NCBI GenBank assembly: GCA_902779455.1
Contig: CACZBS010000002.1
Coordinates: 186,001 to 250,000 of the forward strand
Direction: 5' to 3'
Origin: an uncultured Prevotellaceae bacterium
GTDB lineage: Bacteria; Bacteroidota; Bacteroidia; Bacteroidales; Bacteroidaceae
DNA: 64,000 nucleotides
In this document: positions 4,442-59,672 of the stretch, piece after piece
Numbering within the stretch: the first letter of the stretch is position 1
How the letters are laid out: each line of letters opens with the position of its first letter
Notes under the pieces: model-generated
Databases searched by the model: none
Seen by the model: only the letters and a program-made list of their open reading frames with translations
Told to the model about the DNA's origin: nothing
Program-made: the position numbers and the translations under genes

Positions 4442-5692
4442 TTATTTTTTACGTAAGTTCTTCTTCCATTCCAGTTTCGGGATCTTGATCTCCTGGCCGG
4501 GGGTGAGCGGCTGGCTCGACTTCAGTCCGTTGAGGGCTTCGACGTAGCACTCCATGTCGGGACCAAGGTAGCGACGTGAGATCTGCTTGAGGCTCTCGCC
4601 GGCACGGGCCTTCACCGTCTCCTGGACGCCGATGATGCGATAGGCTCCCAGGCGCACGCGGGCGTCCATATCCTCATATTTCTGCGAGTCGAAAGCGGGC
4701 ACGGCGGCTGTGGCGGACGCTACGGGCTCTGCGACGGCCGGCTCCTCTGCCTGCACAGCTTCCGGCTCTGAGGCGACCTCTGCGGGCTCTGCGACGGCGG
4801 GTGCTGCGACGGCGGTGTCAGCTGTCGGCTGGGCCACGGCTGCCGTGTCTGCCACCTGCTCGGCCTTCTGGATCACTTCGGGCTCAGTCGAAGCTGTTGC
4901 CTTGGCAAAGAGATAGCCAAGGAGGAAGCCGCCGATGGCTGCCACGAGAATCCATAGCCAGGGGAACGGCTGTTTTTCGGGTGCTGACGTCAGCGGAGCA
5001 GCGACGACGGGCTCAGGCTCGGGCTTTACAACGGGCTCGGGCTTAACAACGGGCTCGGGTTCAGGCTCAGTTTCGGGCTCAGGCTCAACAACGGGCTCAG
5101 GTTCGGGCTCAGGCTCAACGACAGGCTCGGGTTCAGGCTCAACGACAGGCTCGGGTTCAGGCTCAGGTTCAGGTTCTGGTTCAACGACAGGCTCAGGCTC
5201 TACAATGGGCTCAGGTTCGGGCTCGGCAATAGGTTCGGGCTCAGGCTCAACAACCGGCTCAGGCTCTGCAACCGGCTCAGGTTCAACAACCGGCTCAGGA
5301 TCAACGACTGGCTCGGGTTCGGGCTCCGTCTCCCCGACGGTCTCCTCCTGCGGCATATCGTCGAACTCCACGCCGTCGTTGAGTGCGACGGTCTCGAACT
5401 GCGAGAAAGGCTTGTTGACGAGCTCCTTCATGGCAGCATCGGGGGTGAACGAGAGCTTCGAGTGGCTGTCGATGACGACGCGCTCACCCGTGTTGACGTT
5501 GACACTCTCGCGGGCTCCGACGCCCACGATCTTAAACGTGCCCAGTCCCTTGATCTTCACTTGCTTATCGGCCTCGAGACCCTTGTGGATGGTCTCGATG
5601 ATGGCGTCGATGAAGAAGGCAGCCTCGCGCTTGTCGAGTCCGTGCTTCTCCATGAGGCGGGAAGCCAGGTCGGTCAGATTCAGCTTACTCAT
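4442..5692 (-). CDS. HU-type DNA-binding domain fused to PE-repeat linker, membrane segment and LysM
   Basis: 416 residues with an unusual order of parts. Residues 1-92 are an HU/IHF-like fold (GLGTFKIV, then [13 protein letters not shown], then [13 protein letters not shown]), which normally binds DNA. Residues 121-230 are almost only Pro-Glu-Val repeats. A membrane segment lies at about 245-263 ([19 protein letters not shown]), then an Ala/Val/Glu-rich linker, and at about 351-408 a LysM-like module ([18 protein letters not shown], then [11 protein letters not shown]). If the HU part is cytoplasmic the LysM part would be periplasmic and could touch peptidoglycan. Proteins with HU and LysM/SPOR parts are known in Bacteroidetes; the tethering role is inference. 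It overlaps the preceding HU gene by ATGA and precedes moxR by 16 bp. Confidence 0.85.
5003..5332 (-). repeat. In-gene tandem repeat coding a Pro-Glu-rich linker
   Basis: The coding sequence for residues 121-230 of the HU/LysM protein is built from irregular repeats of units such as EPEPEPVV and EPVV. The plus strand shows recurring GGCTCAGGTTCGGGCTC-like blocks. Such internal repeats can expand or shrink by slippage, so linker length may vary among strains. The opposite strand gives a long Ser/Gly open frame which is only a shadow. Confidence 0.9.
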
Positions 5693-7302: not shown

Positions 7303-8265
7303 TCACTTATCACTCTTGAACAGGCTGTCGACGAAGTCGCGCTTGTTGAAGAGCTGCAGGTCGGTCATGCCCTCGCCCAGTCCGATATACTTCACGGGCA
7401 CCTTCAGCTGGTCGGAGATGCCGATGACGACGCCGCCCTTGGCCGTGCCGTCGAGCTTGGTGATGGCCAGCGACGTGATCTGCGTGACGGCGGCGAACTG
7501 GCGGGCCTGCTCGAAGGCATTCTGTCCGGTAGAGCCGTCGAGCACGAGGAGCACCTCGTCGGGGGCCGTCGGCAGCACCTTCTTCATCACGTCCTTGATC
7601 TTCTTCAGCTCGTTCATCAGGCCCACCTTGTTGTGCAGTCGGCCGGCCGTGTCGATGATGACCACGTCGGCCCCGTTGGCCACGGCGCTCTGCAGCGTGT
7701 CGAAGGCCACGGAGGCCGGGTCGCTGCCCATCTGCTGCTTCACCACAGGCACGCCAACGCGCTCGCCCCAGATGCAGAGCTGCTCGACGGCGGCCGCACG
7801 GAACGTGTCGGCAGCGCCCAGGTAGACCTTCTTGCCGGCCTCCTTGAACTGCCAGGCCAGCTTGCCGATGGTCGTCGTCTTCCCCACCCCGTTGACGCCC
7901 ACGACGAGGATGACGTAGGGCCTATGATCGGTGGGCAGGTCCCATTCGTCCATGTCGGTCGTATTGTTCTCTGCCAGCAGGGCGGCAATCTCCTCGCGGA
8001 GGATGTTGTTGAGTTCACTCGTCGACACATACTTGTCGCGAGCCACGCGCTCCTCGATGCGGCTGATGATCTTGAGCGTCGTGTCGACGCCCACGTCGCT
8101 GGTGATGAGCACCTCCTCGAGGTTGTCGAGCACGTCGTCGTCGACCTTCGACTTGCCTGCCACGGCGCGCGCCAGTTTGTCAAACACCGACGTCTTGGTC
8201 TTTTCCAACCCGCGGTCGAGTGTCTCCTGCTGTTTCTTCTTGCTGAATAATCCGAAAAATCCCAT
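7303..8265 (-). CDS. ftsY: Signal recognition particle receptor FtsY
   Basis: 320 residues from the chosen ATG at 8265 (MGFFGLFSKKKQQ); the frame is open to an upstream ATG at 8283, but the 8265 start gives the typical basic/amphipathic FtsY N-terminus. The G-domain motifs are GVNGVGKTTTIGKLA, DTFRAAAVEQL, DTAGR and TKLDGTAKGG, all characteristic of the SRP GTPase receptor. It docks ribosome-SRP complexes at the inner membrane for cotranslational insertion. It has its own promoter (8310-8340) and heads the long operon running to the window edge. In many Bacteroidetes ftsY follows rpmB-rpmG; here a mobile-element-like module lies upstream instead. Confidence 0.96.
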   Translation of the reverse strand: MGFFGLFSKKKQQETLDRGLEKTKTSVFDKLARAVAGKSKVDDDVLDNLEEVLITSDVGVDTTLKIISRIEERVARDKYVSTSELNNILREEIAALLAENNTTDMDEWDLPTDHRPYVILVVGVNGVGKTTTIGKLAWQFKEAGKKVYLGAADTFRAAAVEQLCIWGERVGVPVVKQQMGSDPASVAFDTLQSAVANGADVVIIDTAGRLHNKVGLMNELKKIKDVMKKVLPTAPDEVLLVLDGSTGQNAFEQARQFAAVTQITSLAITKLDGTAKGGVVIGISDQLKVPVKYIGLGEGMTDLQLFNKRDFVDSLFKSDK

Positions 8266-8309
8266 AATGCTTTTTGTATGCAATGCGTTTACACGCTTAT
8301 ATTAGAGTG

Positions 8310-8419: not shown

Positions 8420-8521
8420 AAAGTGCCGCTTTTACGTGAAATAAAGCGGTGCTTTAGGCAACGAAAAGCGGTGCTTTACTCCACGAAAAGCGGTGCTTTT
8501 GGTTATGAAAAGCGGCGCTTT
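8420..8521. repeat. Array of five 13-bp cores with a 22-bp period (family A repeat)
   Basis: Cores start at 8420 (AAAGTGCCGCTTT, inverted type), 8443, 8465 and 8487 (each AAAGCGGTGCTTT) and 8509 (AAAGCGGCGCTTT). The last four are spaced by exactly 22 bp, the first by 23 bp. The 9-bp spacers differ from one another. The array abuts the primase-like gene: its TAA stop codon (8522-8520 on the minus strand) overlaps the last core. Similar arrays are at 48315 and 58897. Role unknown; each core is a small quasi-palindrome. Confidence 0.9.
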
Positions 8522-9479
8522 AACCGTCCCCCGCGATTGTCGCCGTGGGGTCAGCGAGCAGGAGGTCGGCCAGGTCGGTGTTGGGCGGGAACTGCTCGAG
8601 GGCGTCGGTGATGGTGAAGCTGACGCCCTCGGCCTGACGGAGACGGCGCTGCCAGTCGGCATAGCAGCCGCTGTCGGGGAAGACGGCGACGCGGCGCCCA
8701 CGCAGCGCCGCGAGCTTGTCGGGGGTCAGCCCCTTGCAGCCACTGGCCGCGAGCCACACCACGTCGGGGCGCAGGGCGGCCATGAGCAGGGCCGTCTTCT
8801 CGCCCTCGACGAGGCCCACCTGAGCCTCGGGGCGCTGCCGCAGCAAGTGTTCGCCGAAGAAGCACTGGCGCAGTTCGAAGTCGGGCGGCAGTCGCTTCTG
8901 GCGGATCAGCCGTGCGTGCACCCACGACTGATAGTCGCGGCGATGGCCGTCGTCGCGATAGCGCATGATATGGCCCGAGCGGACGCGCCCCTCGAGGTCG
9001 ATCTGCCAGTAGATGACGTCGCCCCGACGGGTGCCTCCGAGGCGATAGTCGTCGACGACTTTAGCGACGTCAGCTTCACTTAATCTAAAGATGTGTAAGC
9101 ACGTATCAGTAAACCAATTACGAAACGTGCTACCGCACGCCATGCTCCGCTCTACATATGCCATCGGGAGGGGCACGAGCGGTTTCTTCTGAGGCTCCTT
9201 CTGAGCCACGGGCGGACGGGCGTCACGGGCGTCATGGTCGGGTTTGAGCCAGGGGTGGTCGTGAAAGAATTCCGAGGGTCGGAGGTGGTAGCCGCACGAC
9301 TGTTCATGGTCGCATCGGCCACAGGTGTCGCTGACGTAGGCACAGTTGTTCTGAGTGTCGACATAGCGCACGAAGCAGTGGCGGCGCCCACACTGCGGGC
9401 AGGTCGTCTTCTGCTGTCGGCGGCCCGTCACGCGAGGTGAGTCGAGCCGGTAGCGATAGTCATTGCTGTTGTTCATCAT
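8520..9479 (-). CDS. Zinc-ribbon/TOPRIM primase-like protein (DUF6371-type) of a mobile element
   Basis: 319 residues from the paired ATGs at 9479/9476 (MMNNSNDYRYRLDSPRV); the frame is open further upstream but that part covers a strong hairpin and looks untranslated. A Cys-rich zinc ribbon (CPQCGRRHC, then CGRCDHEQSCGYH) is followed by a region with TOPRIM-like motifs VGLVEGEKTALLMA and VAVFPDSGCY, as in phage and plasmid primases. The protein is therefore probably a primase or primase-related replication protein. It follows the RecA-like ATPase gene, a pair commonly carried by Bacteroidales mobile elements. No integrase, relaxase or other transfer gene is nearby, so the pair may be a remnant. 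Family naming is from memory of the pattern. Confidence 0.7.
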   Translation of the reverse strand: MMNNSNDYRYRLDSPRVTGRRQQKTTCPQCGRRHCFVRYVDTQNNCAYVSDTCGRCDHEQSCGYHLRPSEFFHDHPWLKPDHDARDARPPVAQKEPQKKPLVPLPMAYVERSMACGSTFRNWFTDTCLHIFRLSEADVAKVVDDYRLGGTRRGDVIYWQIDLEGRVRSGHIMRYRDDGHRRDYQSWVHARLIRQKRLPPDFELRQCFFGEHLLRQRPEAQVGLVEGEKTALLMAALRPDVVWLAASGCKGLTPDKLAALRGRRVAVFPDSGCYADWQRRLRQAEGVSFTITDALEQFPPNTDLADLLLADPTATIAGDG

Positions 9480-9554
9480 TTGCGATGTCTGAGGTGTTAA
9501 AATGGTCGGTTGGAACATTCCTATCAGCAGGCTGACAGCTGCCTGAGCGTCCAA

Positions 9555-9590
9555 CCGTCCAAACCCATAAGTATATGGGGATTTGGACGG
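9555..9590 (-). promoter_or_regulatory. Strong hairpin in the leader of the primase-like gene
   Basis: CCGTCCAAA (9555-9563) pairs with TTTGGACGG (9582-9590), and inside it CCCATA (9564-9569) pairs with TATGGG (9574-9579) around a 4-nt loop AGTA, giving a 15-bp stem with a 2-nt bulge. It sits between the ATPase stop and the primase-like start, and could control its translation or mark an RNA-processing site. Adjacent GTCCAACCGTCCAAAC repeats part of the arm. Confidence 0.65.
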
Positions 9591-9611
9591 ATTAGACGGT
9601 TCAGGCACGCG

Positions 9612-20234: not shown

Positions 20235-20990
20235 ATGATAACACTCATTGCAGGACCATGTGTCATTGAATCAGAAGAACTGCTCGACCAGGTGGCCGCC
20301 CGACTCGTCGACATCAACCGACGGCTGGGCACGGACATCATCTTCAAGGCTTCGTTCGACAAGGCTAACCGCACCTCGATCCACTCCTTCCGCGGCCCGG
20401 GCATCGACAAGGGGCTGCAGATGCTGGGCGACGTCAAGAAGAAGTGGGGCCTGAAGATCCTGACCGACATCCACGAGGCATGGCAGGCCGAGGCGGCGGG
20501 CCAGGTGTGCGACGTGCTGCAGATTCCGGCCTTCCTCTGCCGACAGACCGACCTGCTCGTGGCTGCTGCCCGCACGGGGCGGACGGTCAACATCAAGAAG
20601 GCGCAGTTCCTGGCCGGCCGCGACATGCGCTACCCGGTAGAGAAGGCCCGCGACGCCGGCGCACGGGAGGTGTGGCTGACGGAGCGCGGCAACATGATGG
20701 GCTACGGCACGCTCGTCGTCGACTTCCGCAACATCCAGGACATGCTCGAGATCGTGCCCACCGTCATCATGGACTGCACCCACTCCGTGCAGCGCCCTGA
20801 CGCCCAGGGCGGCAAGACGGGCGGCGACCGCCGCTATGTGCCGATGATGGCCATGGCGGCCAAGGCCTTCGGCGCCACGGGCTACTTCTTCGAGGTGCAC
20901 CCGACGCCCGACCAGGGCCTGAGCGATGCCGCCAACATGCTGGAGCTCGACAAGCTGGAAGGGCTGGTCAGGAGACTGATTGAGAAGTGA
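20235..20990 (+). CDS. kdsA: 3-deoxy-8-phosphooctulonate synthase
   Basis: 251 residues from ATG 20235 (MITLIAGPCVIESEE); the frame upstream overlaps the promoter. Motifs: IIFKASFDKANRTS, FRGPGIDKGL, VNIKKAQFLAGRDM, LTERGNMMGYGTLVVDFRN and VIMDCTHSVQRP with a final HPTPDQGLSDAANML. The enzyme condenses arabinose 5-phosphate and phosphoenolpyruvate to KDO 8-phosphate, the first committed step of the lipid A core sugar KDO. Its partner kdsD, which makes arabinose 5-phosphate, follows after 47 bp. Confidence 0.96.
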   Translation: MITLIAGPCVIESEELLDQVAARLVDINRRLGTDIIFKASFDKANRTSIHSFRGPGIDKGLQMLGDVKKKWGLKILTDIHEAWQAEAAGQVCDVLQIPAFLCRQTDLLVAAARTGRTVNIKKAQFLAGRDMRYPVEKARDAGAREVWLTERGNMMGYGTLVVDFRNIQDMLEIVPTVIMDCTHSVQRPDAQGGKTGGDRRYVPMMAMAAKAFGATGYFFEVHPTPDQGLSDAANMLELDKLEGLVRRLIEK

Positions 20991-21037
20991 GAAGTGAGAG
21001 GTGGGAATTGAGAATTGAGAACTGAGAATTGAGAATT
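20985..21037 (+). repeat. Purine-rich heptamer repeats in front of kdsD
   Basis: Units GAGAAGT, GAGAATT and similar GA-rich heptamers/octamers run from the end of kdsA up to the kdsD ATG. The same texture occurs before rimO, the BatD-like gene and the PLD gene. It is either slippage-made sequence or a translation-enhancing leader. Confidence 0.7.
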
Positions 21038-21985
21038 ATGACATCACGTGAAATAGGCATACAAGCCATACGCGACGAGGCTCAGGCGCTGCTTGACCTC
21101 ATTCCTAAGATGGACGACGGGTTCGACCGCGCCGTCGACCTCATGTACGACTGCCACGGTAAGGTCATTGTCACGGGCGTCGGCAAGAGCGGACACATCG
21201 GAGCGAAGATAGCGGCCACGCTGGCCTCCACCGGCACACCGGCCTTCTTCGTCAACCCCCTCGACGTCTATCATGGCGACCTGGGCGTCATCACGCCTGA
21301 CGACGTCGTCATTGCCATCTCCAACTCGGGCCAGACGGACGAGCTGCTGCGCTTCATCCCCATGGTGCTCCACATCGGCTCGCCCATCATCGCCATGAGC
21401 GGCAACCCGCAGTCGCTGCTGGCCAAGTACAGCACGTGCCACCTTAATATAAGTGTCGCGCGCGAGGCTTGTCCGCTTAACCTCGCTCCCACGAGCTCCA
21501 CCACCGCCACGCTGGCCATGGGCGACGCACTGGCCATCGCACTGATGCAGAAGCGCAACTTCCGCCCGCAGGACTTTGCACACTTCCATCCCGGCGGCGA
21601 GCTGGGCCGCAAGCTGCTGACGACGGCGGCCGACGTCATGCATCGCGACGACCTGCCCCTGCTACGGCCCGACACGCATCTGGGCGAGGCCGTCATCCTC
21701 GTCAGCAAGGGCAAGCTGGGGCTGGGCGTGGCTGTCGACGACGACCGCCGCATCCTCGGACTCATCACCGACGGCGACATACGCCGCGCCATGGAGCGAT
21801 GGCAGGCGCAGTTCTTCGACCGCACCGTCGCCGACATCATGACCCGCGAGCCTAAGACCGTCGGCCCCGACACGAAGATCAGCGACGTACAGCGGCTGCA
21901 GCAACAGCACAAGATTCACTCGGTCCTCGTCGTCGACGCCGACCGCCATCTGCTCGGCATCGTAGACCATTATTCGTGCTTCTAG
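21038..21985 (+). CDS. kdsD: D-arabinose-5-phosphate isomerase (KpsF/GutQ family)
   Basis: 315 residues from ATG 21038 (MTSREIGIQ); a TTG three codons earlier lies in the purine repeats. An N-terminal SIS domain has TGVGKSGHIGAKIAATLASTGTPAFF, then ISNSGQTDELL and the SSTTATLAMGDALA stretch with FHPGGELGRKL; two CBS domains follow (about 205-315). It interconverts ribulose 5-phosphate and arabinose 5-phosphate and so feeds KdsA, its operon neighbour. Confidence 0.95.
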   Translation: MTSREIGIQAIRDEAQALLDLIPKMDDGFDRAVDLMYDCHGKVIVTGVGKSGHIGAKIAATLASTGTPAFFVNPLDVYHGDLGVITPDDVVIAISNSGQTDELLRFIPMVLHIGSPIIAMSGNPQSLLAKYSTCHLNISVAREACPLNLAPTSSTTATLAMGDALAIALMQKRNFRPQDFAHFHPGGELGRKLLTTAADVMHRDDLPLLRPDTHLGEAVILVSKGKLGLGVAVDDDRRILGLITDGDIRRAMERWQAQFFDRTVADIMTREPKTVGPDTKISDVQRLQQQHKIHSVLVVDADRHLLGIVDHYSCF

Positions 21986-21989
21986 AGTT

Positions 21990-22089
21990 TAGAATTTAGA
22001 GTTTAGAATTTAGAGTTGTTCTCGCTTCGCTGCGATTAAGAGTTTTGAGTTAAGAATTTAGAGTTGAGAATTTAGAGTTGAGAGTTTAG
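21990..22089 (+). repeat. Low-complexity heptamer stretch (TTTAGAG/GAATTTA)
   Basis: About ten imperfect copies of GAGTTTAGAATTTA-like units fill the start of the gap between kdsD and the PLD gene; a further GTGAAGA series occupies 22210-22275 directly before the PLD ATG. No gene is supported in 21986-22275. Confidence 0.8.
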
Positions 22090-22188
22090 AGTTTCGCTTG
22101 TACTAATTATCTGATAATGAGTGTCACTTCGTGACAGAAATCTAGCAAATCTTTTCAAATCTTCCAAAGCAGATTTGTTTGATTTGTT
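22090..22188. repeat. 99-bp direct repeat, left copy
   Basis: This block and the one at 23635-23733 agree at 98 of 99 positions and have the same orientation, flanking the PLD gene. The block begins AGTTTCGCTTGTACTAATTA, contains the palindrome TGTCACTTCGTGACA and ends in AAATC/GATTT-rich sequence. Confidence 0.95.
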
Positions 22189-22275
22189 GTTGAGTTAAGA
22201 ATTTAGAGGGAAAAGTGAAGAGTGAAAAGTGAAAAATTTGCTACCGCTGATTAAGTGAAGAGTGAAGAGTGAAGA

Positions 22276-23544
22276 ATGAAACGATATATACTATTGATAT
22301 TATGGGGGCTGCAGGGGGGACTGACGGCCAGCGGACAGATCGTCACGGCCGACTCGGCCATCTACTACATGCTCCGCGACTACGGCATCCAGTTCACGCG
22401 CGACAACAGCGTCGCCCTGCTCATGTCCGGACAGGAGAAGTTCGATGACATGTTCAGTGCCATACGCCAGGCACGACGCTCCGTCCACCTCGAGTACTTC
22501 AACTTCCGCAACGACTCCATCGCTGAGCTGCTCTTCGACCTCCTGAGGCAGAAACGACGTGAAGGCGTGGAGGTGCGGGCCCTCTTCGACGGCTTCGGCA
22601 ACGACTCCAACAACCGCCCGCTGCAGAAGCACCACATCGCAGCCCTGCGCCGCGACTCCATCGACATTCATGAGTTCGACCCCATCCGCTTCCCATGGGT
22701 CAACCACATCTGGCCCCGCGACCACCGCAAGATTGTCGTCATCGACGGCAACGTGGCCTACACGGGGGGCATGAACGTGGCCGACTATTACATCAAAGGG
22801 ACGGAGCAGGTGGGCGAGTGGCGCGACATGCACTGCCGCATCGAGGGCAGCGCGGTGGAGCAGCTGCAGCACATCTTTGCCACCATCTGGCTGGAGGTGA
22901 CCGGCGAGAACCTCTTCCGACCCGAATACTTCCGTGCCCATGAGCCGGTAGAGATCAGCGGCCTCAAGCCTGACACGACCAGCACGCGCGGCCATAAGCT
23001 GGTGGGCATCGTCAACCGCGAGCCCCACATCACGAACGACGTCATGCGCTACTTCTACGTCAACGCGATCAACTCGGCCCACGACTCGCTGCGCATCATC
23101 AACCCCTACTTCACGCTCATCCCGTCAGTCAAGCGGGCCCTGAAGCGTGCCTTACGGCGCGGCGTCAAGGTGGAGCTGATGATCTCGGCCAAGAGCGACA
23201 TCCCCCTGACGCCCGACTGCGCCTTCTACAACATGCACAAGATGATGAAGCGCGGCGCACACGTCTGGCTCTACCAGCCAGGCTTCCACCACTCAAAGGT
23301 CATGATGGTCGACGGCCGCTTCTGCACCGTCGGCAGCACTAACCTCGACGCCCGCTCGCTGCGCTTCGACTATGAGGAGAACGCCGTCATCATCGACCGC
23401 CCCACCACCCTCGAGCTCGACCGCATGTTCGACCGCGACAAGCGGCAGAGCGTCTACCTCACTCAGGAGGAGTGGCGCCGCTTCCGCACACCATGGCAGC
23501 GCTTCCGCGGATGGCTGGCCCATCTGCTGCAGCCCTTCCTCTGA
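22276..23544 (+). CDS. Secreted phospholipase D / cardiolipin synthase-like protein
   Basis: 422 residues. Two HKD motifs are present: HRKIVVIDG (His150, Lys152, Asp157) and HSKVMMVDG (His339, Lys341, Asp346), each followed by the family glycine/serine pattern (YTGGMN; TVGSTNLDARS). The fold is therefore that of PLD-type cardiolipin synthases. Unlike ClsA it has no pair of N-terminal membrane helices but a cleavable-looking signal peptide (MKRYILLILWGLQGGLTASGQ), suggesting a periplasmic or exported enzyme. It stands alone between 99-bp direct repeats and ends in a strong terminator. Phosphatidyl-transfer versus hydrolysis cannot be decided. Confidence 0.88.
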   Translation: MKRYILLILWGLQGGLTASGQIVTADSAIYYMLRDYGIQFTRDNSVALLMSGQEKFDDMFSAIRQARRSVHLEYFNFRNDSIAELLFDLLRQKRREGVEVRALFDGFGNDSNNRPLQKHHIAALRRDSIDIHEFDPIRFPWVNHIWPRDHRKIVVIDGNVAYTGGMNVADYYIKGTEQVGEWRDMHCRIEGSAVEQLQHIFATIWLEVTGENLFRPEYFRAHEPVEISGLKPDTTSTRGHKLVGIVNREPHITNDVMRYFYVNAINSAHDSLRIINPYFTLIPSVKRALKRALRRGVKVELMISAKSDIPLTPDCAFYNMHKMMKRGAHVWLYQPGFHHSKVMMVDGRFCTVGSTNLDARSLRFDYEENAVIIDRPTTLELDRMFDRDKRQSVYLTQEEWRRFRTPWQRFRGWLAHLLQPFL

Positions 23545-23575: not shown

Positions 23576-23614
23576 GAAGCGGCACCTCTCTTCACAGAGG
23601 AGTGCCGCTTTTTC
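23576..23614 (+). terminator. Terminator behind the PLD gene, built from two inverted family-A cores
   Basis: GAAGCGGCACCTC (23576-23588) and GGAGTGCCGCTTT (23599-23611) form a hairpin followed by TTTCTTT. The two arms are variants of the 13-bp core seen in the 22-bp arrays, in opposite orientation and 23 bp apart. Confidence 0.85.
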
Positions 23615-23800: not shown

Positions 23801-24263
23801 TATGGTGATAAATGCCCGAGATTTCAACGCCCCCCTGCCCCCTCTAATCTTAGAGGGGGAGTTGGTTACTACCGCAGGAGCAGATGCTTAGAGGAAGAGT
23901 CAACGCCCCCCTGCCCCCCTCTAATCTTAGAGGGGGAGTTGGTTACTACCGCAGGAGCAGATGCTTAGAGGGAGAGTCAACGCCCCCCTGCCCCCCTCTA
24001 ATCTTAGAGGGGGAGTTGGATACCACCGCAGGAGCAGATGCTTAGAGGGAGCCTCTAATATTAGAGGGGGAGTTGGTTACTACCGCAGGAGCAGATGGGC
24101 GCAGTGACACCAGCGGATGCGGGCGGCATGCACGCTAACTGACTCCCCCTCTAAGATTAGAGGGGGGCAGGGGGGCGTTGACAGCTGTCGGGAACTTATC
24201 GCCACATTGAGTTTTCTTTTGTCACGGGGCAGGGGGGCGTTGAAATCTCGGGAACTTATCGCC
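23801..24263. repeat. GC-rich repeat island with 76-77 bp tandem units and inverted ends
   Basis: Units start at 23825, 23901 and 23978 (CAACGCCCCCCTGCCCC), each with the hairpin CCCCCTCTAA-TC-TTAGAGGGGG and then GAGTTGGTTACTACCGCAGG. A partial copy lies at 24052-24096 and inverted partial copies at 24137-24181 and 24226-24263. The first 38 bp (from 23801) are matched in reverse complement by 24226-24263 at roughly nine of ten positions. No coding sequence is supported in 23545-24266. Confidence 0.85.
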
Positions 24264-29257: not shown

Positions 29258-29265
29258 CAAAGGTA
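29258..29265 (-). promoter_or_regulatory. -7 element of the GH35-GH2 unit
   Basis: TACCTTTG then CAC on the minus strand, about 40 bp before the GH35 ATG. A clear -33 element was not found, which may mean activation by a regulator. Confidence 0.6.
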
Positions 29266-29373
29266 ATCTTTTTTGGCGACAATAGCACATACATAGAGAC
29301 GACAAAAGGTTAAATAAAATTAATAATTAGCACAAGTAACAAGGGATTAAGCCATTATATGCAGTATTTTTTG

Positions 29374-47065: not shown

Positions 47066-48316
47066 ATGATGAAATTAAGAGAGATACTGACGATGCTCGC
47101 CTTGACGCCGCTCGTCTTGACGGCTCAGACGTTCGACTTTGACTTAACAAAACAGCAGCCCACATATAACGCCCGCGACGGCTACGGATACGACCTGCTG
47201 CCCGCTCCCAACGTAAAGAAGCCCACGGCCGACCCGTTCTATTTCTCGGTGCGCGTGCCTGACGGCAACTATCGCGTGCGCATCGTGCTGGGTGGCATCA
47301 AGAAGTCCAACACGACGGTCCGTGCAGAGGGGCGCCGGCTGATGATGGACAACGTGACGACCAAGAAGAAGAAAGACACCCGCACGGTGGAATTCACTGT
47401 CAACAAGCGTTCTCCGCTTATTGAAGGCGATAAGTTCGTGAAGATCAAGGACCGAGAGAAGGACTATCTGGCATGGGACGACAAGCTGACGCTGGAGTTC
47501 AACGGCCCTCAGCCCGCCGTACAATCCATTCACATCGAGCGCGACGACAAGGTGCCGACAGTCTATCTTTGCGGCAACTCCACTGTCGTTGACCAAAACA
47601 ATGAGCCCTGGGCCTCATGGGGACAGATGATCACCCGATGGTTTGGCCCTGAGGTGGCCATCTCGAATCACGCCGAGAGCGGCCTGACAGCCCGCACGTT
47701 CATCGGCTCTTACCGTCTGGACAAGATTCTCCAGACGCTGAAGCCTGGCGATTACGTCTTTGTGGAATTCGGCCATAACGACGAGAAAGAGAAGCGTCCT
47801 GGCGACGGCGCGTGGTATCACTACCAGTATCAGCTGAAGATTTTCGTTGACCAAGTGCGTCAGAAAGGGGCTACGATCGTCTTCTGTACGCCAACGCAGC
47901 GTCGTGCCTTTGAAAATGACAACAAGACTATCCGCAACACCCACGGCGATTTCCCCGCAGCCATGAAGGACGTGGCAGAGCGCGAACACGTGCCCCTCAT
48001 CGATCTTAACCAGATGACGAAGACGTTCTTCGAGACTCTTGGCTATGAGAACTCCAAGCGGGCACTGGTGCACTATGCCGCCAACACATTCCCCGAACAG
48101 GACAAGGAGCTGGCCGATAACACGCACTTCAATCCCTACGGGGCCTATGAGGTGGCCAAGTGTGTCGTCATGGGCATCAAGCAGCTCAAGCTGCCGCTGG
48201 CCGACCTGCTGCGCTCGGACTGGCGCGACTTCAATCCTGCCAAGCCTGACGATTGGCGAACGTTCCAGTGGGCGCCTGCCCGCAATGCCGACCTAATTAA
48301 ACCTGACGGAAATTAA
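47066..48316 (+). CDS. Secreted CE12-type rhamnogalacturonan acetylesterase
   Basis: 416 residues with signal peptide (about 1-20) and an N-terminal beta domain (about 21-160). The GDSL/SGNH domain has block I GNSTV (Ser172), block II-type AESGLTART, block III FGHNDE (about 236-241) and the catalytic Asp351/His354 in ADNTHFNPYG. This set and the sequence around it fit carbohydrate esterase family 12, which removes acetyl groups from rhamnogalacturonan. A GH106 rhamnosidase gene follows. The TAA stop codon is embedded in the first repeat core of the array at 48315. The second Met (47069) is also a possible start. Confidence 0.88.
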   Translation: MMKLREILTMLALTPLVLTAQTFDFDLTKQQPTYNARDGYGYDLLPAPNVKKPTADPFYFSVRVPDGNYRVRIVLGGIKKSNTTVRAEGRRLMMDNVTTKKKKDTRTVEFTVNKRSPLIEGDKFVKIKDREKDYLAWDDKLTLEFNGPQPAVQSIHIERDDKVPTVYLCGNSTVVDQNNEPWASWGQMITRWFGPEVAISNHAESGLTARTFIGSYRLDKILQTLKPGDYVFVEFGHNDEKEKRPGDGAWYHYQYQLKIFVDQVRQKGATIVFCTPTQRRAFENDNKTIRNTHGDFPAAMKDVAEREHVPLIDLNQMTKTFFETLGYENSKRALVHYAANTFPEQDKELADNTHFNPYGAYEVAKCVVMGIKQLKLPLADLLRSDWRDFNPAKPDDWRTFQWAPARNADLIKPDGN

Positions 48317-48393
48317 AGCGGTACTTTGAGCATCTCAAAGCGGTGCTTTGAGCATCGCAAAGCGGTCCTTTGAACATGTCAAAGCGGCCCTTC
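48315..48393. repeat. Array of four 13-bp cores with exact 22-bp period (family A repeat)
   Basis: Cores begin at 48315 (AAAGCGGTACTTT), 48337 (AAAGCGGTGCTTT), 48359 (AAAGCGGTCCTTT) and 48381 (AAAGCGGCCCTTC), all in the same orientation and precisely 22 bp apart; 9-bp spacers are GAGCATCTC, GAGCATCGC and GAACATGTC. The array starts within the esterase stop codon and lies in the 131-bp gap before the GH106 gene. Confidence 0.93.
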
Positions 48394-48447: not shown

Positions 48448-51144
48448 ATGAAAAAGATATTGACGACCTTGGCCATCGCAGTAATGTCGATGACAGCTAC
48501 GGCACAAAGTTGGCCAACACCCACGACGGAAGCAAAACCGGGATTGCGGTGGTGGTGGCTGGGGTCAGCTGTCGACAAGGCCAACCTCAAGTGGAATCTG
48601 CAGCAATATGCAAATCATGGTGCCGGCGCCGTGGAGATCACTCCCATCTATGGTGTGCAGGGCAACGAGAAGAACAATATCGACTATCTTTCCGATCAAT
48701 GGATGGAGATGCTGCGCTATACCGCTGAACAGTGTCGGCAAAACGGAATAGAGCTCGACATGGCCACCGGCACGGGCTGGCCATTCGGTGGCCCCTGGGT
48801 GCCGCTGGAAGAGAGTGCCTGTCGCGCCGTTTTCGTGGAGAAGACCATAGACGCCGATGGTGTCTGGAGCACCGTCAACGGGAAAAAGGGGCTGCAGCCT
48901 GACACCAAGGATGTCAGCGCCATTGATCTCTCCCTTACAGAGAAGGACGCCAAGAACGCCGTCCTGCACAAGGTGATGCTTTACACCGCTGACGGCAAGA
49001 CCACTGACGTCACAAGCAACGTAAAGGACAGCAAGTTGGATTGTGACGCCCTCTTCCCTTCAAAGAAGGCTCCGCTCGAATCCCAACTTATTGCCATATA
49101 TATTAAATATGGTGTCATGAAGGTAAAGCGAGCAGCCCCTGGCGGTGAAGGACTCGTCGTCGACCACTTCGACAAGAATGCTGTGGCCAACTACCTGAAG
49201 CACATCGAGGAGGCCTTTGAGCGTACACGCACCCCCTACCCTCACACTTTCTTCAATGACTCCTACGAGGTAGAGGCTGCCACATGGACCCCCACGCTGT
49301 TCCAGGAGTTTGAGCGCCGTCGTGGCTACAAACTCGAAGACCATCTGCCCGAACTGCTTGTTTCTTTTAACAGTAAGTCCACAGAAGCTACAGCGGGGAC
49401 CGCTAAGAAAGCCATCTGCGTTCTCTCCGACTATCGCGAGACTCTTGGCGACCTGATCCTCGAGAACTTCACTGAGCAATGGACGGCATGGGCTCACAGT
49501 CATGGAGCCATCACCCGCAACCAGGCCCACGGCTCGCCAGCCAACCTCATTGACTGCTATGCTGCCGTCGACATCCCAGAGATCGAGGGATTCGGGCTCA
49601 GCGACCTCGGCATCAAGGGGTTGCGCACCGACCCTGGCAAGACGCGCAAGAACGACTCTGACTACTCGATGTTCAAGTATGCACCCAGCGCTGCCCACGT
49701 CTGCGGCAAACCCTATACATCGAGCGAGACGTTCACATGGCTCACGGAGCACTTCCGCACATCGCTCTCACAGCTGAAGCCTGACCTCGACCTGATGTTT
49801 TGTGCAGGAGTGAACCACATGTTCTTCCACGGCACATGCTATAGCCCCAAGGACGACGAGTGGCCCGGATGGAAGTTCTACGCTTCCATCGACATGAGTC
49901 CCACGAACTCTATCTGGCGCGACGCTCCCTATTTCATGCAGTATGTGGAGCGCTGCCAGAGTTTCCTGCAATGGGGCGAGCCTGACAACGACTTCCTGGT
50001 GCTGCTGCCCATCCGCGATGCCTGGAAGAAGCCCAACGGCAAACTGCTCATGCAGTTCACGATCCATGCCATGGGCAAACTGATGCCTGAGTTCCGCGAG
50101 GCCATCCTTGAGATTGACAAGGCAGGTTTCGATTGCGACTATATCTCCGAGCGCCTGCTTATGCAGACCACCTGCAAGAACGGACAGCTCATCACATCGG
50201 GCGGCACCAGCTATAAGGGACTGATCATCCCTGGCAGCGGCGAGATGCCTGAAGCCGTCAGGCAGCATATCGAACGGCTCAAGGAACAAGGCGCCCACAT
50301 CATGTATGGCATCGATACCGACGAGATGGCAAAGGTTGCTAAGCCTGAGCCAATGAAACTGAACTTCGGACTGAAAGCCATCCGACGGAAGAACCCGACA
50401 GGTCACCACTACTTCATCGCCAATCTGACGCCCGACGACATCAGCGGCGTCTGCGACGTGGCTGCCGGCAAGAGCGTCGACGCTCTCTGGTTTAATCCTC
50501 TCACGGGCGAGATCACACCAGCCGAAACTGACGATGATGGCTTCCAAATCAACCTCCACAGCGGCGAATCGATGATCCTGCAGACCTTTGACGAACCTAT
50601 GAAGTTCGAAAAGGAAACTCTGGCGACCAGCGAAACGCCCCAACAGGAAGAGATTGAGATTGAAGGTCCCTGGACCTTGTCATTCATTGAGGAAGCCCCC
50701 AAGGTCGATAAGACCTATCAACTCGATGAACTTCAGACTTGGGAAGACCTTGATGATCAGACCCGAGTGACGATGGGTACTGGCGTCTACACCACGACCT
50801 TCAAGATGTCGAAGAAGCAAGATCCCGCTGGTCCATGGATGATAGACCTTGGAGACGTACGCGAGTCGGCCCGTGTCTACATCAACGGTCAGTTTATTGG
50901 CTGCGCCTGGAGCGTGCCCTTCATCCTTGACACCAAGGGCGCACTCAAAGTGGGTGCCAACGAACTGCGTATCGAGGTGACCAACCTGCCGGCAAACCGC
51001 ATCAGCGATCTCGACCGCAAGAACGTCAAATGGCGTAAGATGGAAGAGATCAACGTTGTCGACATCAACTACAAAAAGACGCTTTACGACCAATGGACTC
51101 CAGTGCCAAGCGGTCTGAACTCAGAAGTTAAACTAATTAGGTAA
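48448..51144 (+). CDS. GH106-like alpha-L-rhamnosidase, secreted
   Basis: 898 residues with signal peptide (MKKILTTLAIAVMSMTATAQ). The family begins with PGLRWWWLGSAVDKANLKWNLQQYANHGAGAVEITPIYG and TGTGWPFGGPWVP, both hallmarks of GH106 (large Bacteroidetes rhamnosidases). A middle part includes FFNDSYEVEAATWTPTLFQEF and HGSPANLIDCYA; the C-terminal about 150 residues form a jelly-roll with MIDLGDVRESARVYINGQFIG. It should remove rhamnose from rhamnogalacturonan or similar glycans and pairs with the CE12 esterase upstream. The catalytic residues were not identified by eye. Confidence 0.87.
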   Translation: MKKILTTLAIAVMSMTATAQSWPTPTTEAKPGLRWWWLGSAVDKANLKWNLQQYANHGAGAVEITPIYGVQGNEKNNIDYLSDQWMEMLRYTAEQCRQNGIELDMATGTGWPFGGPWVPLEESACRAVFVEKTIDADGVWSTVNGKKGLQPDTKDVSAIDLSLTEKDAKNAVLHKVMLYTADGKTTDVTSNVKDSKLDCDALFPSKKAPLESQLIAIYIKYGVMKVKRAAPGGEGLVVDHFDKNAVANYLKHIEEAFERTRTPYPHTFFNDSYEVEAATWTPTLFQEFERRRGYKLEDHLPELLVSFNSKSTEATAGTAKKAICVLSDYRETLGDLILENFTEQWTAWAHSHGAITRNQAHGSPANLIDCYAAVDIPEIEGFGLSDLGIKGLRTDPGKTRKNDSDYSMFKYAPSAAHVCGKPYTSSETFTWLTEHFRTSLSQLKPDLDLMFCAGVNHMFFHGTCYSPKDDEWPGWKFYASIDMSPTNSIWRDAPYFMQYVERCQSFLQWGEPDNDFLVLLPIRDAWKKPNGKLLMQFTIHAMGKLMPEFREAILEIDKAGFDCDYISERLLMQTTCKNGQLITSGGTSYKGLIIPGSGEMPEAVRQHIERLKEQGAHIMYGIDTDEMAKVAKPEPMKLNFGLKAIRRKNPTGHHYFIANLTPDDISGVCDVAAGKSVDALWFNPLTGEITPAETDDDGFQINLHSGESMILQTFDEPMKFEKETLATSETPQQEEIEIEGPWTLSFIEEAPKVDKTYQLDELQTWEDLDDQTRVTMGTGVYTTTFKMSKKQDPAGPWMIDLGDVRESARVYINGQFIGCAWSVPFILDTKGALKVGANELRIEVTNLPANRISDLDRKNVKWRKMEEINVVDINYKKTLYDQWTPVPSGLNSEVKLIR

Positions 51145-52772: not shown

Positions 52773-52825
52773 CTAATAATTTGTTAATTATCAAATTCTA
52801 ATTCTTAATTCTTAATTTTATTTAG

Positions 52826-52833
52826 TACCTTTG
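52826..52833 (+). promoter_or_regulatory. -7 element of the lon promoter
   Basis: TACCTTTG followed by CAT, about 60 bp before the lon ATG; the leader is purine-rich (AGAAGAAAG-type units). No obvious -33 element. Confidence 0.6.
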
Positions 52834-52896
52834 CATCCTCAATTCAGAAGAAAGAAGTTTAGAAGTAAGAAGAAAGAGCAAGAAGAAACATAAGAA

Positions 52897-57595: not shown

Positions 57596-58882
57596 ATGAC
57601 ATTCGAACAAACATATCTCAATGACAACATCCTCGACGCGCTCTACGACATGCACTTCGAGGAGATGACTCCTATCCAGGAGAAGTGTATCCCGCAGATC
57701 CTCGACGGACACGACGTGCTCGGCGTAGCTCAGACAGGCACAGGCAAGACGGCGGCATACCTGCTGCCCATCCTGTCGATGCTCGACGACGGCGACTACC
57801 CCGAAGATGCCATCAACTGCGTCGTCATGTCGCCCACACGCGAACTTGCCCAACAAATTGACCAGGCCATGGAGGGCTTCAGCTACTATCTTGACGACGT
57901 CTCGTCCATAGCTGTCTATGGCGGCAACGACGGCACCCGTTTCGACCAGGAAATGAAAAGCTTGCGTGGCGGAGCTCCTGTCGTTATTGCCACGCCAGGC
58001 CGACTGCTCAGCCACCTGAAGGTAGGCAACCTTGACCTCTCGCGCACCTCTTTCTTCGTGCTCGACGAGGCCGACCGTATGCTCGACATGGGCTTCTCTG
58101 ACGACATCCTGCAGATCAACGCCCTGCTGCCTAAGGACTGCCAGCGCGTCATGTTCTCTGCCACGATGCCTCAGAAGATCCGCGAGCTGGCTGTCACCCT
58201 GCTCCACGACCCTGTCGAGGTGAAGCTCAAGGTCAGCCGTCCTGCTGATAAGATTCACCAGACGGCCTACGTCTGCTATGAGCCGCAAAAGCTCAAGATC
58301 ATACAGCACATCTTCCGTCAGGGCGACCTGCAGCGCGTCATCATCTTCTGCGGCAAGAAAGAGCGCGTCAAGGATGTCACGCGTGAGCTGAAGCGCATGA
58401 AGATCAACTGCGCAGCCATGCACTCCGACCTCACCCAACCTGAACGCGACGACGTGATGCGCCGCTTCAAGGCTGGACATAACGACGTGCTCTGTGCGAC
58501 TGACATCGTCTCGCGTGGCATCGACATCGATGACATCCGGATGGTGCTCAACTACGACGTGCCTCACGACGACGAGGATTACGTTCATCGCATCGGACGC
58601 ACGGCCCGCGCCGATCGTGATGGCGAGGCCGTCACGCTGGTCAGCGACCGCGATATTCGCCGTTTCATGCAGATTGAGAAGTTCCTTGGCCGCGAGGTCG
58701 AGAAGACACCGCTGCCTGAAGGACTGGGCGATGCCCCTGCCTACAAGGCATCCGAACGTGGCGGCGAAAGTAAGTCACGCAGTGGCAGGAATCGTGGGCG
58801 AAGCGGACGAGGCCATAGCCGCGGACGAGGCAGAAACAGCGGCAAGAAGGGCGGAAAACCGTCTCCAACGGTCGAAAGCTGA
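57596..58882 (+). CDS. DEAD-box RNA helicase, RhlE-like
   Basis: 428 residues. Q motif region TPIQEKCIPQIL, motif I AQTGTGKTAAYLLP, Ia PTRELAQQI, II VLDEADRMLDMGF, III SATMP, IV-VI including ATDIVSRGIDI and HRIGRTARADR. The C-terminus is Arg/Gly-rich (SRSGRNRGRSGRGHSRGRGR), an RNA-binding tail. It probably remodels structured RNA in ribosome assembly or cold. It is 12 bp after the permease gene and a family-A repeat array begins right behind it. Confidence 0.94.
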   Translation: MTFEQTYLNDNILDALYDMHFEEMTPIQEKCIPQILDGHDVLGVAQTGTGKTAAYLLPILSMLDDGDYPEDAINCVVMSPTRELAQQIDQAMEGFSYYLDDVSSIAVYGGNDGTRFDQEMKSLRGGAPVVIATPGRLLSHLKVGNLDLSRTSFFVLDEADRMLDMGFSDDILQINALLPKDCQRVMFSATMPQKIRELAVTLLHDPVEVKLKVSRPADKIHQTAYVCYEPQKLKIIQHIFRQGDLQRVIIFCGKKERVKDVTRELKRMKINCAAMHSDLTQPERDDVMRRFKAGHNDVLCATDIVSRGIDIDDIRMVLNYDVPHDDEDYVHRIGRTARADRDGEAVTLVSDRDIRRFMQIEKFLGREVEKTPLPEGLGDAPAYKASERGGESKSRSGRNRGRSGRGHSRGRGRNSGKKGGKPSPTVES

Positions 58883-58896
58883 TGCTTCTTTGCAGC

Positions 58897-58975
58897 AAAG
58901 GACCGCTTTGACCTTAACAAAGGACCGTTGTGTGCCCAACACAACGGTCCTTCTTGTATGTCGAAGGACCGTTTT
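58897..58975. repeat. Array of four 13-bp cores with exact 22-bp period (family A repeat), mixed orientation
   Basis: Cores start at 58897 (AAAGGACCGCTTT), 58919 (AAAGGACCGTTGT), 58941 (ACAACGGTCCTTC) and 58963 (GAAGGACCGTTTT). Spacing is exactly 22 bp. The third is inverted relative to the others, so copies two and three form a 13-bp perfect stem with a 7-nt loop, a probable terminator of the helicase gene. The array begins 15 bp after the stop codon. Confidence 0.9.
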
Positions 58976-58997
58976 GAAATGATAAATGAGGTGGTTG

Positions 58998-59029
58998 TTT
59001 GGTGATTTAGTTTTTATTTCGTATCTTTG
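58998..59029 (+). promoter_or_regulatory. Promoter of rsmG-MBL-mgtC
   Basis: TTTG (58998-59001), 20 bp, TATCTTTG (59022-59029), about 23 bp before the rsmG ATG; it overlaps an apparent upstream extension of the rsmG frame. Confidence 0.8.
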
Positions 59030-59051
59030 CAGCAAAATCTTATTATCTCGA

Positions 59052-59672
59052 ATGGAACTAATAGAGAAATACTTCACCAAACTTAGCGAGCGGCAGCGCC
59101 AGCAACTGGATGCCCTCGAGGGACTCTATCGTGAGTGGAACGAGAAAATCAATGTCATCTCGCGGAAGGATATCGACAACCTCTACCTGCACCATGTGCT
59201 CCACTCAATGGCCATCGGACGCTTTGTCAACTTCAGACCAGGCACCGAGGTGCTCGACTTCGGCACGGGCGGCGGGTTCCCAGGCATCCCCCTGGCCATT
59301 CTGTTCCCTGAATGTCAGTTCACGCTCATCGACGGCACAGGAAAGAAAATCCGTGTGGCACAGGAGGTCTGTCAGGCTATCGGACTCAGCAACTGCAAGC
59401 CAGAACATCGTCGCGGCGAAGAGGAGCGAGGCCACTATGAGTTTGTGGTGAGTCGCGCCGTCATGCCCCTACCCGACCTGGTCAAGATTGTCCGCAAAAA
59501 CATCTCGCGGACGCAACGCAACGCCCTGCCTAACGGAATTATCTGCCTGAAAGGAGGCGACGTTCAGAGTGAGATACAGCCATTCAGGAAGATTGCCGAA
59601 GTCAGCGAGGTGAGCCAATGGTTCAGCGAAGAGTGGTTTAAAGAGAAACATTGCATCTACGTACCCCTATGA
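59052..59672 (+). CDS. rsmG: 16S rRNA (guanine-527-N7)-methyltransferase
   Basis: 206 residues from ATG 59052 (MELIEKYFTKLSERQRQQ), chosen because the upstream part of the frame contains the promoter. Motifs: EWNEKINVISRKDIDNLYLHHVLHSM and VLDFGTGGGFPGIPLAILFP (SAM binding) and VVSRAV, the RsmG signature. It methylates 16S rRNA G527 (E. coli numbering). Overlaps the MBL gene by ATGA. Confidence 0.95.
   Translation: MELIEKYFTKLSERQRQQLDALEGLYREWNEKINVISRKDIDNLYLHHVLHSMAIGRFVNFRPGTEVLDFGTGGGFPGIPLAILFPECQFTLIDGTGKKIRVAQEVCQAIGLSNCKPEHRRGEEERGHYEFVVSRAVMPLPDLVKIVRKNISRTQRNALPNGIICLKGGDVQSEIQPFRKIAEVSEVSQWFSEEWFKEKHCIYVPL

Follow-up and report, generated by a model that had tools for sequence, protein, structure and literature searches.

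A dispersed family of 22-bp-phased tandem repeat arrays, probably of mobile origin, in Prevotella and related Bacteroidales

Repeat arrays and neighboring genes in the window

The window, i.e., the whole stretch of 64,000 nucleotides of an uncultured Prevotellaceae bacterium that was analyzed, contains three arrays of short cores repeated in steps of 22 bp. The arrays, the genes around them and a terminator with core-like arms are listed below.

7303..8283, minus strand: SRP54-type GTPase (PF00448, PF02881), which we take to be FtsY-like
8420..8432, no strand assigned: inverted core AAAGTGCCGCTTT, 23 bp before 8443
8443..8521, no strand assigned: array 1, four 22-bp units; the last core (8509-8521) overlaps the TAA (8520-8522) of the minus-strand ORF 8520-9608
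8520..9608, minus strand: DUF6371 and zinc-ribbon protein, neighbor of array 1
23576..23611, plus strand: intrinsic terminator with core-like arms (-27.1 kcal/mol), a doubtful family member
47066..48316, plus strand: GDSL lipase/acylhydrolase, neighbor of array 2
48315..48393, no strand assigned: array 2, four 22-bp-phased units; the first core overlaps the TAA (48314-48316) of ORF 47066-48316
48448..51144, plus strand: glycoside hydrolase family 106, neighbor of array 2
57596..58882, plus strand: DEAD-box helicase, neighbor of array 3
58897..58975, no strand assigned: array 3, four 22-bp-phased units, three of them degenerate
58986..59672, plus strand: GidB, small-subunit rRNA methyltransferase G, neighbor of array 3

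In array 1, AAAGCGGTGCTTT was found exactly at 8443, 8465 and 8487 and AAAGCGGCGCTTT exactly at 8509, all in steps of 22 bp, in agreement with the original prediction for this DNA. The inverted core that had been predicted at 8420 is present but off phase by one base, since its distance to 8443 is 23 bp. The same core family and period had been claimed at 48315 and 58897, and both arrays indeed keep the 22-bp phase, although the last three cores of array 3 deviate from the AAAG/CTTT ends. Array 3 starts 14 bp past the stop at 58882. Its cores 2 and 3 form a 14-bp inverted pair, a terminator-like hairpin that fits the intrinsic-terminator pattern (a G+C-rich hairpin followed by a T run) and whose two arms show the same departure from the consensus. 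A fourth family member had been proposed at 23576-23611. Each arm of this hairpin matches the core only with 2-3 mismatches and the arms are 23 bp apart; we regard it as an ordinary intrinsic terminator, doubtful as a member, and left it out of the array family. The predicted location of all four loci at gene ends was confirmed, and so was the presence of a TAA stop codon in a terminal core of arrays 1 and 2 (the last and the first core, respectively).

The AAAGN5CTTT pattern occurs 10 times in the window, compared with 0.65 expected and a maximum of 2 over 100 shuffles, and Tandem Repeats Finder reported period 22 at 8443-8522 and 48315-48392. No RNA family of Rfam matched the window at gathering score.

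Other repeats were also observed in the window. A lone AAAGGTAATCTTT core at 29259-29271 is probably due to chance. A 77-bp unit is repeated three times head-to-tail (97% alike) at 23824-24051, in the gap beside the 23576 terminator, and an imperfect GGCTCAGGCTCA-type repeat at 5007-5314 lies in or over the minus-strand ORF 4442-5692. Runs of 7-bp repeats are located between genes (20979-21037, 21983-22094, 22210-22280 and 52794-52888), and intergenic lags of 7-bp multiples are also common in this genome and in two others, G022 and G464.

Copy number and anatomy of the unit

The source genome of the window (G000) is a 3.7-Mb assembly in 49 contigs. Using the same pattern read backwards as a control, genome-wide scans identified 353 pairs of cores 22 bp apart at up to 2 mismatches (72 in the reversed control) and 75 at up to 1 mismatch (11 in the control); three successive cores at up to 1 mismatch were found 20 times, compared with 0. 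Near-core pairs (up to 1 mismatch) in a 400-kb sample of this genome numbered 45 at a lag of 22 bp, 28 at 44 bp and 15 at 66 bp, with at most 2 at each of the other lags between 5 and 43 bp. The original prediction had made the family depend on finding the 22-bp spacing outside the window; this spacing was found genome-wide and in related genomes.

The unit is an AAAG-N5-CTTT core with a 9-bp spacer, 22 bp in all. Among 27 source-genome arrays of at least three units, a set in which 15 of 35 loci, plus C1 stretches among the remaining 20, were picked for holding matches, 19 had four units, six had five, one had three and one had six. The arrays of named genomes (n = 130) gave a similar picture, with four units in 78, three in 26, five in 25 and six in one. 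The AAAG/CTTT ends and the 22-bp pitch were imposed by the search and are hence common to all arrays; the N5 center was not imposed. We found that species share the frame and the usual four units and that each has a typical N5: P. bivia has an RTNAC-type center, P. histicola RYGCC, G402 CTGTC and CGGTR, G511 WGSCW and the source genome CGGYN. In the latter, 87 of 101 cores start with CGG in one orientation (mostly CGGTA, CGGCA, CGGTG and CGGTC), and in oriented cores the fixed half carries 1.5, 1.6 and 1.7 bits per base and the variable half 0.5 and 1.0. The outer spacer positions are dyad-related (T..A in P. bivia and P. histicola, G..C in the source genome), which, in addition to the core, gives a dyad every 11 bp. 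Flanks and most spacer positions diverge, whereas the frame and a coherent center within each species are kept.

Distribution of the arrays

Of 299 genomes sampled from the genus, which appears to be Prevotella in the wide sense, 66 contained three cores at up to 1 mismatch, including 41 of the 131 good-quality ones; the reversed control matched 9 of 299. Up to 229 array matches per genome were found in this sample, and 233 of the 299 genomes had none. In the family sample, 11 of 201 genomes (5 of 30 genera) matched at the same setting, and the only match among 296 genomes of the phylum sample was the source genome itself. When named species genomes were scanned for three exact cores, the matches listed (at least 120 stretches) were all from Bacteroidales; these were mostly Prevotella/Prevotellaceae, together with Xylanibacter, Leyella, Marseilla, Mediterranea and Bacteroides. 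The distribution is patchy even among close relatives: 6 of 20 near relatives of the source genome had any two-core match, and G402 alone had 398. Within the P. bivia chromosome, arrays appeared by eye to be spread along its length.

Phage was considered as a vehicle and rejected, as 3 viral stretches matched compared with 5 for the reversed control, i.e., no enrichment. A plasmid search with one 401-bp array region of P. bivia gave no match. One contig from a viral collection carries two clear four-unit CATAG arrays (L386:6507-6585 and L387:6883-6961), of which one begins right after a stop codon and the other has the stop in its first core. The short gene after the second of these arrays (L387) is presumably HU-like, judging by its look.

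Species without, or nearly without, the AAAGN5CTTT frame have other intergenic 20-22-bp tandem repeats of unrelated sequence, several of which are quasi-palindromic. Examples of 21-22 bp are AATAAGTGGCACTTATTTTCG in G022 and GGCAGCGGCCGCTGCCAATAAT in G464, and loci with such repeats are given below.

G022, other 20-22-bp tandem repeats: L325, L330, L340, L341, L324, L331
G464, other 20-22-bp tandem repeats: L352, L354, L361, L350, L351, L355, L362

This observation suggests that the 21-22-bp quasi-palindromic repeats and the arrays may belong to a wider class.

Gene context

Genes were called with a custom script based on ORFs and hexamers, not a standard gene finder. With identical arrays counted once and 44 arrays at locus edges and 2 in ORF calls set aside, 135 arrays from four sets had two called neighbors, which were convergent in 45 cases, co-directional in 66 and divergent in 24. 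Convergent gaps were over-represented in loci that were partly picked for arrays and whose gaps are lengthened accordingly; gap number predicts 24 of them and gap length 31 (p 0.005 relative to length). Divergent gaps (22 expected by gap number, 30 by gap length) were not fewer than predicted by number and not significantly fewer by length. The source-genome subset of this count showed no convergent excess (2 of 9).

When all 27 arrays of the source genome were considered, 22 had a called gene on each side (12 co-directional, 8 convergent and 2 divergent), four were in ORF calls and look like background, and one was at a locus edge. For 13 of the 20 arrays flanked by the 3' end of a gene, the distance to the stop was 30 bp or less, and four of the eight convergent gaps consisted largely of the array itself. 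Location at gene ends is a tendency, strong in the source genome, and not a rule. Such a bias would be expected if insertions survive where genes and start regions stay unbroken. One gene end that holds an array in the source genome is occupied in G022 by a 21-bp array of that genome's own, and in G357, G464 and G274 by strong hairpins.

Insertion and dispersed elements

At the site of array 2, all 16 relatives that could be compared have both neighboring genes side by side without the array, with a stop-to-start distance of 5-104 bp compared with 134 bp in the source genome. These 16 remained from 20 loci after L266 (unrelated), L267 (same genome as L257) and L263 and L264 (second gene absent) were set aside; none of the 20 loci contained an array of the family at any position. 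The array-rich G402 is among the relatives that are empty at this site. Since the site is empty in 16 of 16 relatives, we conclude that arrays arise by insertion.

The array can also be part of a dispersed element of ~250-270 bp, as seen in some species. At least 40 copies were found in G511 (40 of 69 candidates were scored), with left ends 95-100% identical. Their length from end to end was 265-266 bp in 28 of 40 parsed copies; 33 copies had four units, three had three, three had two, and one was cut by a contig end. The shorter copies of 244 and 222 bp correspond to three and two units, respectively, and the element ends are inverted (CGTGAAACA/TGTTTCACG). In G402 and the named MAG RUI320, the arms that flank the array on either side are conserved among 21 copies. 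Bare, direct arrays with 4-7 units are present in G402 as well. Terminal inverted repeats were seen only in G511; the arms in G402 look directly repeated by eye, and visual inspection revealed no target duplication. In P. histicola, one flank of the array carries a conserved TTGATTATC...GTTACAAA module. Around the bare arrays of the source genome no flanking sequence was conserved, which leaves their ends undefined. A further ~23-bp tandem repeat (CCCTTTCTGCGGACATGAAAAAG) was noticed by eye in L176, just outside the left end of the element.

Three arrays are kept in place between sister species at 94-95% identity. In these three orthologous pairs, which are too few for a firm statement, changes in N5 were by eye not fewer than changes in the spacer. 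A linked autonomous element was also considered and found no support: clustering of 409 proteins encoded near arrays gave no recurrent transposase-like family or other candidate mobilizer, the largest cluster having five members.

Base pairing and RNA structure

Variation in the center of the core had been read in the original prediction as covariation. We found no base-pair compensation of this kind. In oriented cores, positions 1/5 and 2/4 showed no association in the source genome (for example, 14 of 56 complementary and 14.0 expected), P. bivia, P. histicola and G402, so the core halves are independent in four of five species sets. G511 was the exception, with an excess of complementary bases at positions 1/5 (93 of 120 compared with 67) among copies that are near-identical and for which shuffles are not independent. 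An excess of complementary core pairs in the pooled multi-species test was an effect of composition differing between species, and the pair deficit that the unoriented within-species test gave in several sets was an artefact of mixed orientations. In the unoriented test, spacer positions 1/9 were above shuffle in the source genome (18 of 23 compared with 12.8) and in G511. For co-directional arrays, each of the four spacer pairs showed G-T and A-C equally often on the sense strand, i.e., no RNA strand was favored. On either strand, the folding of arrays was much stronger than that of shuffles (mean z -4.3 to -6.3), which is expected of any near-palindrome. Adjacent cores were more alike in direct sense in 181 cases and in inverted sense in 120, with 46 ties.

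Independent core halves, parity of G-T and A-C pairs and the direct sense of neighbors together point to recognition of the unit as double-stranded DNA with a direction, not as an RNA helix, and an RNA hairpin as the main constraint was rejected on these grounds. Array 3 is an exception, as its inverted cores, with their shared departure from the consensus, pair into the 14-bp stem. The original prediction had offered protein binding and a 3'-end RNA element as two possible roles. A protein on double-stranded DNA appears to fit the data better, whereas a purely 3'-end RNA role fits poorly because 24 of the 135 arrays lie between divergent genes.

Origin and possible role of the arrays

Taken together, the arrays are probably a dispersed non-coding repeat family of mobile origin, similar to REP, BIME and MITE sequences, with a unit that works at the level of DNA and is probably a protein-bound site. 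The family would belong to Prevotella and close Bacteroidales, and one copy would normally have four (3-5) tandem 22-bp units. Most likely, a protein recognizes the units as double-stranded DNA and meets each of them on one and the same helix face. The AAAG/CTTT ends would then be the common protein contacts, and the species-specific center, with one half fixed and one variable, would provide specificity and direction. The array would travel inside the ~250-270-bp element with conserved arms in some species and stand alone in others, including the source genome. Mobilization could be carried out in trans by an enzyme, and the location at gene ends may reflect the selective loss of insertions that hit genes or start regions.

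Four other explanations were weighed against this one. The arrays might be terminators (possibly bidirectional) or stabilizers of mRNA ends made of tandem small hairpins, i.e., a 3'-end RNA element. Proximity to stop codons in the source genome (13 of 20 arrays), the convergent gaps that are largely array (4 of 8) and the excess of convergent gaps (45 of 135) are consistent with this idea, as are folding above shuffles on both strands, the terminator-like stem of array 3 with its matching arms, and the strong hairpins of G357, G464 and G274 at a gene end where the source genome has an array. We nevertheless consider it unlikely, given the arrays between divergent genes (24 of 135), the independence of core halves in four of five species sets, the equal frequency of G-T and A-C pairs and the closer similarity of neighboring cores in direct than in inverted sense. 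In addition, array 2 lies inside a tight two-gene unit, and a separate hairpin terminator was seen by eye between the gene and the array in 5 of 11 readable flanks of P. histicola. Somewhat less probable still is that the arrays, whatever their origin, have been recruited by the host as binding sites for a nucleoid, insulator or chromosome-positioning protein and are maintained by selection. A phase fixed at two helical turns, a fixed unit number, the spread of arrays along the P. bivia chromosome (by eye), and a frame and species center that are kept while flanks and most spacer positions diverge would all suit such sites; the very patchy occurrence in close relatives, with 233 of 299 genomes lacking a match, and the three orthologous pairs, which gave no sign of constraint, would not.

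An origin as REP elements mobilized by RAYT (TnpA_REP, a Y1 transposase), in which AAAG would replace the GTAG tag, is disfavored and appears improbable. The arrays do share with REPs palindromic units of ~20 bp that are intergenic, clustered and species-typical, and it has been reported that TnpA_REP subclass 2.6, mostly from Bacteroidetes, has atypical secondary structures on its flanks, copies of which occur at other places in the genome (PMC6006769). Genome content argues otherwise: the array-bearing G000, G003, G012 (237 pair matches) and G017 had no Y1_Tnp (PF01797) match, and array-free genomes can carry several. Arrays were also absent from all 12 loci around Y1_Tnp matches, the G011 locus having GTAG-like REPs instead (by eye). 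Least credible of all are neutral minisatellites produced by replication slippage at near-palindromes. Near-identical G511 copies do differ by whole units, and other Prevotella species do have different 21-22-bp quasi-palindromic tandem repeats; but the unit number is strongly fixed, a single frame is used in species with differing centers, and dozens to more than 100 sites are found per genome, whereas slippage alone cannot disperse repeats.

Returning to a mobile, protein-recognized family, we tentatively raise a further possibility, for which the odds are clearly lower: the arrays might serve as a DNA address that is specific to each species. Four-site arrays, numbering dozens to hundreds and with a fixed 22-bp frame, would have their center rewritten genome-wide in each species, tracking a fast-changing DNA-binding protein (a transposase of a new type or a chromosome protein), with AAAG/CTTT as the fixed grip and the center as the changeable code. 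If true, a genus common in gut, mouth and rumen would have an apparently undescribed class of dispersed repeats with an unusual architecture, namely a near-constant unit number, a constant pitch and a species-typical center. A search of literature limited to open-licence PMC articles found no description of 22-bp AAAGN5CTTT arrays, which is weak evidence of absence. The idea would also predict a protein, yet to be discovered, that has changed its specificity repeatedly with the frame unchanged, and would offer a tractable system for studying DNA recognition and its co-evolution. The arrays provide species-typical sequence tags. They are also possible traps in assembly and annotation and should not be called terminators without a test.

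Comparison with known systems

Arrays resemble intrinsic bidirectional terminators in their location at gene ends, self-complementary DNA and A-rich left and T-rich right sides. Unlike these terminators, they are mostly direct tandem repeats, also occur in divergent gaps and, in four of the five species sets, lack covariation of paired bases. The right end of Tn7 has several adjacent TnsB sites of ~22 bp in about 90 bp, and the arrays likewise consist of adjacent ~22-bp units, putative protein sites, in about 90 bp. They differ in being scattered without a transposon, and no Tn7-type ends or transposition genes were seen beside them. A CRISPR array, which has been described as having repeats of 24-48 bp, long unique spacers and one or few loci (PMC3733652), was rejected as an identity for the arrays, which have a 22-bp pitch, a 9-bp spacer, about four units and many loci.

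REP and BIME sequences are divided into GTAG and CGTC superfamilies in the same report (PMC3733652). As described there, they too have short palindromic units that are present in high copy, intergenic and clustered, with families varying by species, and the arrays are indeed made of short, palindromic, extragenic, high-copy units. In contrast to the unpaired GTAG/CGTC tag of that description, the arrays have AAAG/CTTT ends; they also keep a strict 22-bp tandem pitch with about four units and a center that in most species is not self-complementary. The arrays differ from the RAYT-associated REPs in two respects, as their stem arms showed no pairing constraint in four of five species sets and no RAYT link was found, either in the genome or beside the repeat. 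An apparently ordinary GTAG-type REP/RAYT pair was seen by eye in G011 (L367:1000-2300), where a Y1_Tnp gene is flanked by GTAGGGGCGCCC-like palindromes.

BrickBuilt MITEs of Porphyromonas gingivalis are reported to contain a 23-nt minisatellite with the consensus AGAYCATARTATCCTCTCRTRTG and to comprise 19 elements in one species (PMC4596501). Compared with that account, the arrays have another consensus, about four units and a frame found in dozens of species, and they also occur bare. In both, tandem units of ~22-23 bp lie within a dispersed element that is small, non-coding and bordered by arms; terminal inverted repeats were seen in the G511 element. Small, dispersed, non-coding and near-identical copies were found in both G511 and G402, and in these two genomes the arrays belong in part with MITEs.
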